Below are positions 25,235 through 28,274 of a stretch of 64,000 bases of DNA, in pieces. A program made the position numbers and the translations under genes. The first letter of the stretch is position 1, and every line of letters starts with the position of its first letter. The notes under the pieces were generated by a model. The model saw only the letters and a program-made list of their open reading frames with translations, was not told the origin of the DNA and ran no database searches. Source of the stretch: an uncultured Candidatus Poseidoniales archaeon (GTDB lineage Archaea > Thermoplasmatota > Poseidoniia > Poseidoniales > Poseidoniaceae); assembly GCA_902563095.1 (NCBI GenBank), contig CACEWA010000002.1, positions 43,136-107,135 on the forward strand, read 5' to 3'.

Positions 25235-27403
25235 ATGTCTCAGGTCGCTGGCAATCCTGATATTGCAATCTTCTTTGGTTCTCAAACTGGTAATGCCGAG
25301 GAATTGGCAGCTAATACTGCTAAGTTAGCAAAAAAAAGTGGTCTTAATCCAAAGATTTTCGATATGGATGGTTTCGATCCATCCACTTTTTCTTCTCACA
25401 AAAGAGTCCTAATTATCACTTCAACTTGGGGCGAGGGGGATATGCCCGACAATGCAGAAGACCTTTGGATTGCAACTTGTGAATTAAACCCAAACCTAGC
25501 AGGCGTTAGTTTCTCAGTCTGTGCAATTGGAGATACTTCATATGACGAGTTCTGTAAAGCAGGAATTGATTGGGATGAAAAGTTTGTAGCATTAGGTGCA
25601 TCTCGTGTTCACAATATACAATTATGCGATGTGGAATATGAGCCGGAATGGAAGAAATGGGCTGATGCTGTAATTCCATTGATGGCAGCAGTTGATGGTG
25701 GCGAGGCTACAGAATCAGCAGATGTCGTCGAAGAGGCTGCAGTTGTTTCAAGCGAATCGGATAATGTAGTAAGTGCAGATGCAGGAGAATTATCAGGACT
25801 ATTATCTGGCGACCGCAGTATAGCAATTTTCTTCGGTTCTCAAACCGGAAACGCTGCAGGACTTGCAGAGAAGACAGCAAAGATGGCTGTGAATTATGGC
25901 CTTGAGCCAACAGTTTTCGACATGGATGGATATGACCCAGCAGCGTTCTCATCTCACAAAAGAATTCTAATCATAACTTCCACATGGGGTGAAGGAGAGA
26001 TGCCTGACAATGCAGATGCTCTTTGGAATGCAACGGTTGCAAGCAATCCTCCTTTGGCTAATGTCCACTTCTCAGTCTGTGCAATTGGAGACACTTCATA
26101 CGACGAGTACTGTAAGGCAGGTCTTGATTGGGATGAGAAATTCAAGGCATTGGGTGCCACTTGTATAGAGGAAATAAAACTCTGCGATGTAGATTTCGAA
26201 CCTCCATGGTTAGAGTGGGCGCCACTTGCACTTTCCAAGATTGCTTGTGTTGATTCTTCAGGAACTTTCCAAGAGGAATTACTAGAGGCTATGATTGCAT
26301 ACGGTTCCGGTGAGGAAGAAGAAGCAGATATTGGTGATTTCACTCCTGGCCAGATAGTACAGGCTGACCTTTCTATCACAATGCGTATTTTCCGCTACAA
26401 CCCAACATTGGCACAATCTGGTTTCGATACAGTAGCAGTAGCAATCCCTGGGCACGCTTCAATCGAGGATGCACTTGTCGCAATCAAGAGGGAAGTAGAT
26501 GGTTCCCTAACCTTCAGAAGCGGCTCGATTGCAGGGCAAGACCCGCTTACAGGAATCAAAGCAAATGGTAGAATTTTGCCCGCAGACACCACTCGAATTT
26601 GTGACATTGTTTCTGATGGAGACACTCTAACAATCGAGCCAGTTCCTGGGTACGATGTTGTAAAAGATCTGATGGTCTCTTATGACCGATATGACACTGT
26701 GCGAGCCGAATCAAAACCTTGGATGGATGCAGACCCACGTCAAGGTGAGAGGTTAATTTCCGGAGCTGCAATGGGTACAATGACCTCTGCAGAAGCAACT
26801 CACTTGCATACATTAGCAGATGTTGGTTCACTTCAACTGGTTAATGCTATGTCCGATACATATGATGTTGATGAAGAATATTCAGGGCCAGGAATTGCAT
26901 TGCAAAGATGGGTTAGAAGCCAAGACCCTCGTTCGGGTGAAGGACATGTTAAGCAGATGTTTGAACTAATGCAGAGAAAGGGTGGCGTTTGGGATGAAGC
27001 AGATATTTCCTCGATCCAGAGGCATGGAATCGATGGCTCACAGGCAGCAGATTCTCTTTATGCTGCTAGGGCTAGGCTGTTGGCAGAATACAAATTCACT
27101 GGCCGCAGCGGCAGGTTGGTCAAACACTATTCCCGTTCAGTAAAGATGTCAGGTAATGTCAATGAGACCACTCTGTACCGCTCAGTTCTAGGCCCTCTAG
27201 GACTTGGTTCTAACATCATGAATGGTGTCTCTTTGCGAATGATGCTTGGATTTACTAGAAATGGCGGTCCGATGATGCGTGGATTCCAAGGTATGCTAGT
27301 GCCTCCAGCAGGAATTGGTAAGATTCCAAATATGTTCAATGGCAAGGTTGCCAATCATCACGAAGTCGTTGCAATATTCAACGAGTTAGATAGCAGATTT
27401 TGA
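25235..27403 (+). CDS. Tandem flavodoxin-flavodoxin fused to an SdhB/TfrB-like domain that lacks Fe-S cysteines
   Basis: FFGSQTGNAEELA / FFGSQTGNAAGLA, STWGEGDMPDNA / STWGEGEMPDNA; then ITMRIFRYNP...DGSLTFRSGSIAGQDPLTGIKANG...TIEPVPGYDVVKDLMVSYDRY...KPWM, aligning to SdhB/TfrB apart from the ligand cysteines. Confidence 0.85.
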   Translation: MSQVAGNPDIAIFFGSQTGNAEELAANTAKLAKKSGLNPKIFDMDGFDPSTFSSHKRVLIITSTWGEGDMPDNAEDLWIATCELNPNLAGVSFSVCAIGDTSYDEFCKAGIDWDEKFVALGASRVHNIQLCDVEYEPEWKKWADAVIPLMAAVDGGEATESADVVEEAAVVSSESDNVVSADAGELSGLLSGDRSIAIFFGSQTGNAAGLAEKTAKMAVNYGLEPTVFDMDGYDPAAFSSHKRILIITSTWGEGEMPDNADALWNATVASNPPLANVHFSVCAIGDTSYDEYCKAGLDWDEKFKALGATCIEEIKLCDVDFEPPWLEWAPLALSKIACVDSSGTFQEELLEAMIAYGSGEEEEADIGDFTPGQIVQADLSITMRIFRYNPTLAQSGFDTVAVAIPGHASIEDALVAIKREVDGSLTFRSGSIAGQDPLTGIKANGRILPADTTRICDIVSDGDTLTIEPVPGYDVVKDLMVSYDRYDTVRAESKPWMDADPRQGERLISGAAMGTMTSAEATHLHTLADVGSLQLVNAMSDTYDVDEEYSGPGIALQRWVRSQDPRSGEGHVKQMFELMQRKGGVWDEADISSIQRHGIDGSQAADSLYAARARLLAEYKFTGRSGRLVKHYSRSVKMSGNVNETTLYRSVLGPLGLGSNIMNGVSLRMMLGFTRNGGPMMRGFQGMLVPPAGIGKIPNMFNGKVANHHEVVAIFNELDSRF

Positions 27404-27404
27404 G

Positions 27405-28274
27405 GTGATTGTGGTGGTAAAGTATTCGTATTTTCCGGGAAATGTTGCACGCCAATCTTCTTCAGAGGTTGAAGATACAATTCAGCCACTTTGTAAAACT
27501 CTAGGGATTGAGTTGATCGAGATTGTAGGCTACAACAGTGACGGTGGCAATATCATCAAGCAAGGTAACAAAGAACTCCAACTTGCACTTAATGCCAGAA
27601 ACATTGCTTTAGCAGAGAAGAATGGCCATCCGATAATTACTGCTTGTGCTTCAGCCCAAGGAATTCTACACGAGGCCCTAGAGACCTTCAGAAATGACCC
27701 AATCGCTCTTGCCAATGCTAACACTGTTCTGTCCAAAACTTCTGGAATGGCTGCTCAAGCAGATGAAATTACGACCAACCATCTACTGCATGTGCTGGTT
27801 GATGAAATTGGATTGGAGAAAGTCGAAAACGCTGTCATAAATCCACTAAACATGGATATTGCTTGCTATTACGGGCCACACATGCAGCAAGCTGGTGCAT
27901 GTGGTGGAGATGATGCATGGAATCCAAATTACATGGAGAAGTTAATCACTGCTTTAGGTGGAAGACCTGTAGAATACAAGACCAAGACATCTAGCGTAGG
28001 AAATCCTTCCTTGCTCTCCTTGGGCGACTCGGTCATGAAAATGACTGCAAGAGTGCTAAATGATGCAAAGAGAGCGGGTGCTCAAATTATTGTTAGCGCT
28101 TGTACTCAATCACATTCGAACCTTGATTCTTATCAAGGTAAAGCAGGGCGAGTTGCTAGCAAAGATACTAACATTCCAGCTGTAAATTTGACAGAAATAA
28201 TCGCCTTTGCTTTGGGTCACTTCCCCGACAGATTTGCTCAGTTGAAAACCCGTGCAATATTGATTGGTTCTTGA
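27405..28274 (+). CDS. HdrB/CCG-domain-like protein (heterodisulfide reductase subunit B fold) lacking most CCG cysteines
   Basis: YSYFPGN, LGIELIEIVGYNSDGG, CYYGPHMQQAGACGGDDAWNPNYMEKLITALGGRPVEYKTKTSSVG, IIVSACTQSHSNLD match the HdrB scaffold; start may be GTG at 27411/27414. Confidence 0.8.
   Translation: MIVVVKYSYFPGNVARQSSSEVEDTIQPLCKTLGIELIEIVGYNSDGGNIIKQGNKELQLALNARNIALAEKNGHPIITACASAQGILHEALETFRNDPIALANANTVLSKTSGMAAQADEITTNHLLHVLVDEIGLEKVENAVINPLNMDIACYYGPHMQQAGACGGDDAWNPNYMEKLITALGGRPVEYKTKTSSVGNPSLLSLGDSVMKMTARVLNDAKRAGAQIIVSACTQSHSNLDSYQGKAGRVASKDTNIPAVNLTEIIAFALGHFPDRFAQLKTRAILIGS

Follow-up and report, generated by a model that had tools for sequence, protein, structure and literature searches.

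The window analyzed here, a stretch of 64,000 nucleotides, comes from a Poseidoniaceae (Marine Group II) MAG near MGIIa-K1 that is 63% complete. It contains two adjoining genes on the forward strand. The first (25235-27403, +; 722 aa) encodes a flavodoxin-flavodoxin-SdhB-like protein, P1, and the second (27405-28274, +; 289 aa, GTG start) an HdrB/SdhE-like protein, P2. In the following, we refer to the SdhB-like part of P1 as SdhB* and to P2 as SdhE*. Pfam recognizes two Flavodoxin_1 domains (1.9e-57) and a Fer2_3 domain (7.9e-09) in P1, and CCG in two stretches of P2 (3.8e-06). SdhB-type and SdhE/HdrB models of NCBIfam match as well (NF042965 1.3e-36, TIGR03288 3.7e-33), all far under their curated cut-offs.

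P1 starts with a flavodoxin domain of the CysJ/CPR type (25259..25687, +, residues 9-151), which is recognized by Flavodoxin_1 and its FMN loops, is modeled with a pLDDT of ~81-93 over most of its length and sits where most relatives have a [4Fe-4S] ferredoxin domain. It is followed by an acidic/Ala low-complexity linker (25688..25813, +; pLDDT <50 for residues 156-183), the downstream edge of an exchangeable ferredoxin/flavodoxin cassette, and by a second flavodoxin domain (25814..26254, +, residues 194-340), which is likewise matched by Pfam and found in all intact members. SdhB* comprises an N-terminal Fer2_3 domain lacking the four [2Fe-2S] cysteines (26381..26689, +), a C-terminal helical domain lacking the seven other cluster cysteines (26690..27034, +) and a strongly conserved C-terminal extension (27035..27400, +; GRLVKxYxRSVKxSGNVNETTLYRxVLGPxGL...). 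This extension is unmatched in the canonical SdhB proteins that we aligned; by eye, it may resemble the tail of HdrC. SdhE* (27405..28274, +) consists of two CCG folds, again without their cluster ligands. At the gene junction (TGAGGTGAT, 27401..27409, +), the first gene ends in a stop codon that overlaps the GAGGTGA Shine-Dalgarno sequence of the second, which suggests that the pair is translationally coupled. Most relatives share this TGAGGTG overlap. Most relatives begin 2-4 codons downstream of the first GTG, after GAGGTGA (27405-27416 in the window), and the true start of SdhE* is probably the GTG at 27411 or 27414 rather than the one at 27405.

In searches against PDB profiles, the SdhB-like part matches the SdhB subunit 6lum_B (3.9e-16) and SdhE*, over its full length, the HdrB subunit 8rvv_B (4e-55). 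When SdhB* and SdhE* are read as one chain, the resulting structural model (mean pLDDT 67, pTM 0.62) matches HdrB with a TM-score of 0.87 and SdhB with one of ~0.48, both normalized by target. The model also aligns, over both of its halves (window 26375-28271), with an uncharacterized Helicobacter pylori protein, PDB 3kwl (E 8.9e-15, TMt 0.56), which may be another cluster-poor SdhB-HdrB fold. In a model of the full P1 (pTM 0.33), the arrangement of the domains is not usable; the best PDB fold matches to this model, with its two flavodoxin domains, include the FMN domains of P450 reductase and CysJ (1ykg, TMt 0.93).

To follow the cluster ligands, we compared six canonical SdhB and four HdrB/SdhE sequences, taken either from the window's genome or from further Thermoplasmatota, with 123 Poseidoniales sequences. 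At the 11 cluster-cysteine positions of SdhB, the window has S431, D436, T439, D451, V530, L533, V536, S540, E588, I594 and G598; none of the cysteines is kept there, and essentially none over the 123 sequences. The [2Fe-2S] motif of Fer2_3 is absent (S/D/T/D in the window), with the only cysteine among the 123 appearing four times at the position of T439, and all seven cysteines of the CxxCxxCxxxCP and CxxxxxCxxxCP motifs ([4Fe-4S], [3Fe-4S]) are replaced in the window. At the HdrB/SdhE positions, the window has N13, S45, D46, C81 and A84 in the first half and P158, S197, V198, C233 and S236 in the second. Of the two CX31-39CCX35-36CXXC motifs of SdhE*, CCG2 is lost in 123/123 and CCG1 in 117/123; the six relatives with an intact CCG1 are divergent and belong to deep branches of both families. 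By contrast with the clusters, the flavin sites are maintained: the FMN phosphate loop and both loops that contact the isoalloxazine are conserved in 30 domains of the first and 117 of the second flavodoxin (SQTGN/STWGEG/GDTSY in the latter), and ferredoxin-type relatives conserve the CxxCxxC...CP motif of their ferredoxin domain. No recognizable Fe-S site is left in the window protein.

These results bear out, position by position, what an initial annotation of the window had read from its letters, namely a flavodoxin-flavodoxin-SdhB protein beside an HdrB-like one, the loss of Fe-S cysteines from both on scaffolds with intact SdhB and HdrB/SdhE folds, and the retention of only the first cysteine of each CxxC. 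That sister genomes might still hold the cysteines, a possibility it had raised, is true of CCG1 in the six sequences and of SdhB* and CCG2 in none.

The two retained cysteines, C81 and C233, are invariant in 123/123. SdhE* could therefore be a cluster-free thiol-disulfide site in which the flavodoxin reduces the two as a redox pair: exactly one cysteine per former CxxC was kept while nearly all other ligands were lost, the two lie at matching places of pseudo-symmetric halves, and in HdrB the substrate sits between the two clusters. However, C81 is still a cluster ligand in the six members with an intact CCG1, so that its invariance may be partly historical, and we consider this second-strongest alternative unlikely. 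Among the replacements, S197 of SdhE* and, in SdhB*, S540 (26852-26854) and E588 (26996-26998) are likewise identical in 123/123; the latter two may reflect a newly gained interaction or salt bridge. This invariance might also be taken to mean that a metal is bound by non-cysteine ligands (e.g. S540, E588, D590, S197), but S/N/T/A/G/D or hydrophobic residues alternate at most of the other ligand positions, and as we know of no Fe-S site that tolerates such drift, we give this explanation very little weight.

Orthologs of the second protein are present in 274 of 340 genomes of the class and in 35 of the 38 high-quality ones, the remaining three of which fit family f3, a family without the pair. 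In all 30 sampled loci, from 21 genera and both pair-bearing families (f1 and f2), the two genes are adjacent and syntenic, and the order thermosome - pair - Hef-type helicase is kept wherever the sampled stretch is long enough. Nearly all genomes compared are MAGs; one contig titled 'uncultured Rhodobiaceae bacterium' (L224, CALDQY010000296.1) carries a Poseidoniales locus nearly identical to two others (L223/L225) and is probably mis-binned. Relative to its congeners, the pair has a dN/dS of 0.014-0.063, which indicates strong purifying selection. Decay in a single lineage would account for the loss of all canonical ligands, but such selection, the open frames of class-wide orthologs and the unchanging synteny refute it, leaving a pseudogene next to no probability. 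The earlier judgment against decay was thus sound, and the survey it had called for, of related genomes for a conserved cysteine-less pair, found one across the class, with the SdhB* ligands gone throughout the 123 sequences. The thermosome, Hef-type helicase and ribosomal protein genes recur in every sampled genome, so the neighborhood is uninformative on function and offers no partner. In the open-access literature, we found neither a cysteine-less SdhB/HdrB pair nor a Marine Group II flavodoxin fusion described.

The part that does vary is the N-terminal domain of P1. Most relatives have a [4Fe-4S] ferredoxin with one cluster in this place (Pfam Fer4_13 in 16 of 24). The 139 surveyed loci comprised, in raw counts, 89 with a ferredoxin, 32 with a flavodoxin, 12 with neither and 6 truncated; several of the last two kinds (L204, L126, L218, L119) turned out to be assembly gaps, frameshifts or products of an over-narrow search pattern and were reassigned. 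After this correction and the removal of identical sequences, 79 ferredoxin, 30 flavodoxin and 7 carrier-less loci remained. On a tree of the downstream domains, parsimony requires 18 changes between ferredoxin and flavodoxin; before the correction, the well supported branches alone forced 16 changes for the flavodoxin label. The trees were built with FastTree, except for that of the window genus, and given recombination, a tree made from the downstream part of the gene does not equal the species tree. Within the window genus, the DNA tree calls for 5 changes, and uniting the flavodoxin loci in one clade is rejected (p-AU 8.5e-6), which rules out a single origin of the N-terminal flavodoxin. 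The tree of this flavodoxin itself, from a short alignment with many weak forks, gives at least four separate placements.

Alignments of ferredoxin-type with flavodoxin-type relatives show how narrow the exchange is. Only the N-terminal domain and the linker are non-homologous, over ~500-600 bp, identity picks up again from the linker onward, and the DNA on either side is mostly 75-90% identical. On this evidence, the switch is a precise replacement of the N-terminal cassette. It also occurs between genera, as a locus of the Poseidonia group (L211) has a cassette of the window-genus type. In one comparison (L168 vs L170), flavodoxin 2 is unusually divergent too (61-72% vs 81-91% further on), which suggests that the exchange tract sometimes extends beyond the cassette. 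In the carrier-less lineages, no ferredoxin or flavodoxin motif occurs within 0.9 kb upstream, and no split-off ferredoxin gene was found over this distance. Because the front carrier can be swapped or missing, the core is flavodoxin 2, SdhB* and SdhE*. Most named flavodoxin MAGs of the window genus carry SP/SAT isolate prefixes. Flavodoxin is also found in coastal MAGs (North Sea, Saanich) of other genera, and we therefore claim no correlation with iron or habitat.

The initial annotation had proposed one coordinated, iron-free rewiring, and here the data disagree: the loss was stepwise, and a [4Fe-4S] ferredoxin persists in most genera. From the tree, we infer that the SdhB* clusters and CCG2 disappeared before the common ancestor of both families, that CCG1 was lost about twice, and that the exchange of ferredoxin for flavodoxin took place many times.

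What could such a pair work with? Outgroup Thermoplasmatota have SdhA-SdhB-SdhE operons (L132, L134), the ancestral arrangement, and the earlier suggestion to look for an SdhA/TfrA-like partner elsewhere in the genome produced a lead, an orphan SdhA-like flavoprotein (C5:16220-17854, -; L150:4221-5855). It falls far under the family cut-offs (282 of 567 bits for TIGR01812), and in 21/21 genomes the covalent-FAD histidine, the HPT motif, the active-site arginine loop and the substrate His/Arg set are changed or deleted, with single active-site residues (e.g. HP of HPT) persisting in several members. Much of the FAD-binding frame is kept, although the second dinucleotide-binding glycine is not invariant, and the protein is likely, but not certain, to bind FAD. 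Its gene is near-universal in families f1 and f2, at a syntenic locus of its own, and f3 has only distant SdhA/NadB relatives. Nearly always, its neighbors are genes for a HIT protein, a protein with an Acyltransferase domain and a ~500-aa protein that has no match in Pfam; in f2, most copies have a shorter C-terminal end. It adjoins the pair in none of the sampled genomes, and as co-occurrence across two families amounts to a single phylogenetic event, it is weak evidence for an interaction; that this protein is the partner is a guess from homology. The canonical succinate dehydrogenase was rejected as a partner, since the genome has an SdhA-SdhB set of its own with an adjoining third, membrane-type gene (L147) and the pair is not needed there.

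On the NADPH side, 94 of 97 genomes of the class have a stand-alone gene for a CysJ-type FAD/NADPH reductase (e.g. L282:3525-4754, -; L284:3350-4630, -). The incomplete MAG of the window (63%) did not yield it, but congeners have it. A sulfite reductase hemoprotein was not found in any of 11 genomes (11/11), in searches with positive controls. The reductase would be the natural partner of the flavodoxin domain, yet not an exclusive one: a free flavodoxin of the CysJ type exists (L151), and f3 has the reductase without the pair, so that it must have at least one other use. A 2-oxoacid:ferredoxin oxidoreductase (POR) gamma domain is present in 9/9 genomes.

Our favored reading, to which we assign a probability of roughly 45%, takes the pair as the SdhB-SdhE half of a complex-II-like enzyme of archaea (type E/TfrB/HdrCB-related) that was stripped of its clusters and reused in Poseidoniales as the scaffold of a flavin-based electron-delivery complex. 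Flavodoxin 2 would be the core carrier and would receive electrons from the CysJ-type reductase, and the N-terminal ferredoxin or flavodoxin would be an exchangeable entry or exit port that may also trade electrons with the 2-oxoacid:ferredoxin oxidoreductase. SdhB*-SdhE* would no longer conduct electrons, but would hold the carriers mechanically against a third subunit, for which the orphan SdhA-like flavoprotein is the likeliest candidate. Flavodoxin 2 would swing between the reductase and the flavin of this subunit, whose FAD would hand the electrons to a substrate other than a dicarboxylate, giving an overall path from NADPH or ferredoxin via FMN to FAD; no part of this chain would contain iron in the window species. 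The most specific form of this proposal, a full complex-II-like set of three subunits (SdhA*/SdhB*/SdhE*) without Fe-S clusters or a dicarboxylate site, with a flavin-only path (FAD reductase, FMN, FMN, FAD) and a recombining ferredoxin/flavodoxin entry cassette that tracks the supply of iron or oxygen from species to species, is offered tentatively, as a possibility.

The strongest alternative is that SdhB*-SdhE* has no redox function and serves as a scaffold for docking, maturation or regulation, that the carrier feeds an unrelated enzyme and that the orphan SdhA-like protein is no partner at all. The loss of every SdhB* cluster ligand, the occasional complete absence of the N-terminal carrier, the separate loci of the pair and the SdhA-like gene, and the alignment of 3kwl across both halves would all suit a purely structural or regulatory role. 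Against this, flavodoxin 2 comes fused to SdhB* in every case and has conserved FMN loops, so that the polypeptide that contains both likely has a redox role, and we find the alternative doubtful.

The closest known systems are type E succinate dehydrogenase, 8-methylmenaquinol:fumarate reductase (SdhA-SdhB-SdhE, MfrABE) and the thiol:fumarate reductase TfrAB. There, too, an SdhB-type domain precedes an HdrB/SdhE-type one, and an SdhA-type flavoprotein is present, as it is in divergent form in the Poseidoniales genomes. Unlike them, the pair lacks the SdhB cysteines, CCG2 and mostly CCG1 and has a flavodoxin or ferredoxin fused in front, and the Poseidoniales SdhA-like protein lacks the dicarboxylate site and is encoded away from the pair. 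The adjacent SdhA flavoprotein with such a site that goes with SdhB/FrdB is absent, and the TfrB model NF004898 gives 25 bits against a curated cut-off of 385 bits. The earlier label of a 'TfrB/HdrB-type complex' applies by descent, given the order of an SdhB-type and an HdrB-type part, but does not allow fumarate, quinone or heterodisulfide activity to be inferred. Likewise, HdrB of HdrABC (5odc_B, 8rvv_B) has the same fold across the whole of SdhE* (E 4e-55, TMt 0.87), but SdhE* lacks the noncubane-cluster ligands, and CoM/CoB chemistry is not expected. Both flavodoxin domains are of the type found in CysJ and cytochrome P450 reductase, and the class has a matching FAD/NADPH half; here, however, the two halves are on different genes and the FMN half is fused to SdhB*. 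To our knowledge, the known replacements of ferredoxin by flavodoxin involve the switching of separate genes or their expression. In phototrophs, iron-free flavodoxin takes the place of ferredoxin under iron limitation (PMC5322553). The Poseidoniales cassette resembles this in its outcome, but it is a fixed domain swap inside one multidomain protein, made many times over.

In the sunlit ocean, where iron is often scarce, Marine Group II ranks among the most common archaea, and we know of no cultured isolates. In this group, an iron-rich respiratory scaffold has been emptied of its iron throughout the class and is under strong selection, which shows that complex-II and HdrB folds can outlast the loss of their clusters. 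The ~18 switches between ferredoxin and flavodoxin, some among close species, amount to a natural replicated experiment on iron sparing and provide ready-made species pairs, in which mostly 75-90% identical flanks surround the exchanged carrier. The cassette would also offer a testable metagenome marker for iron-limited archaeal populations.
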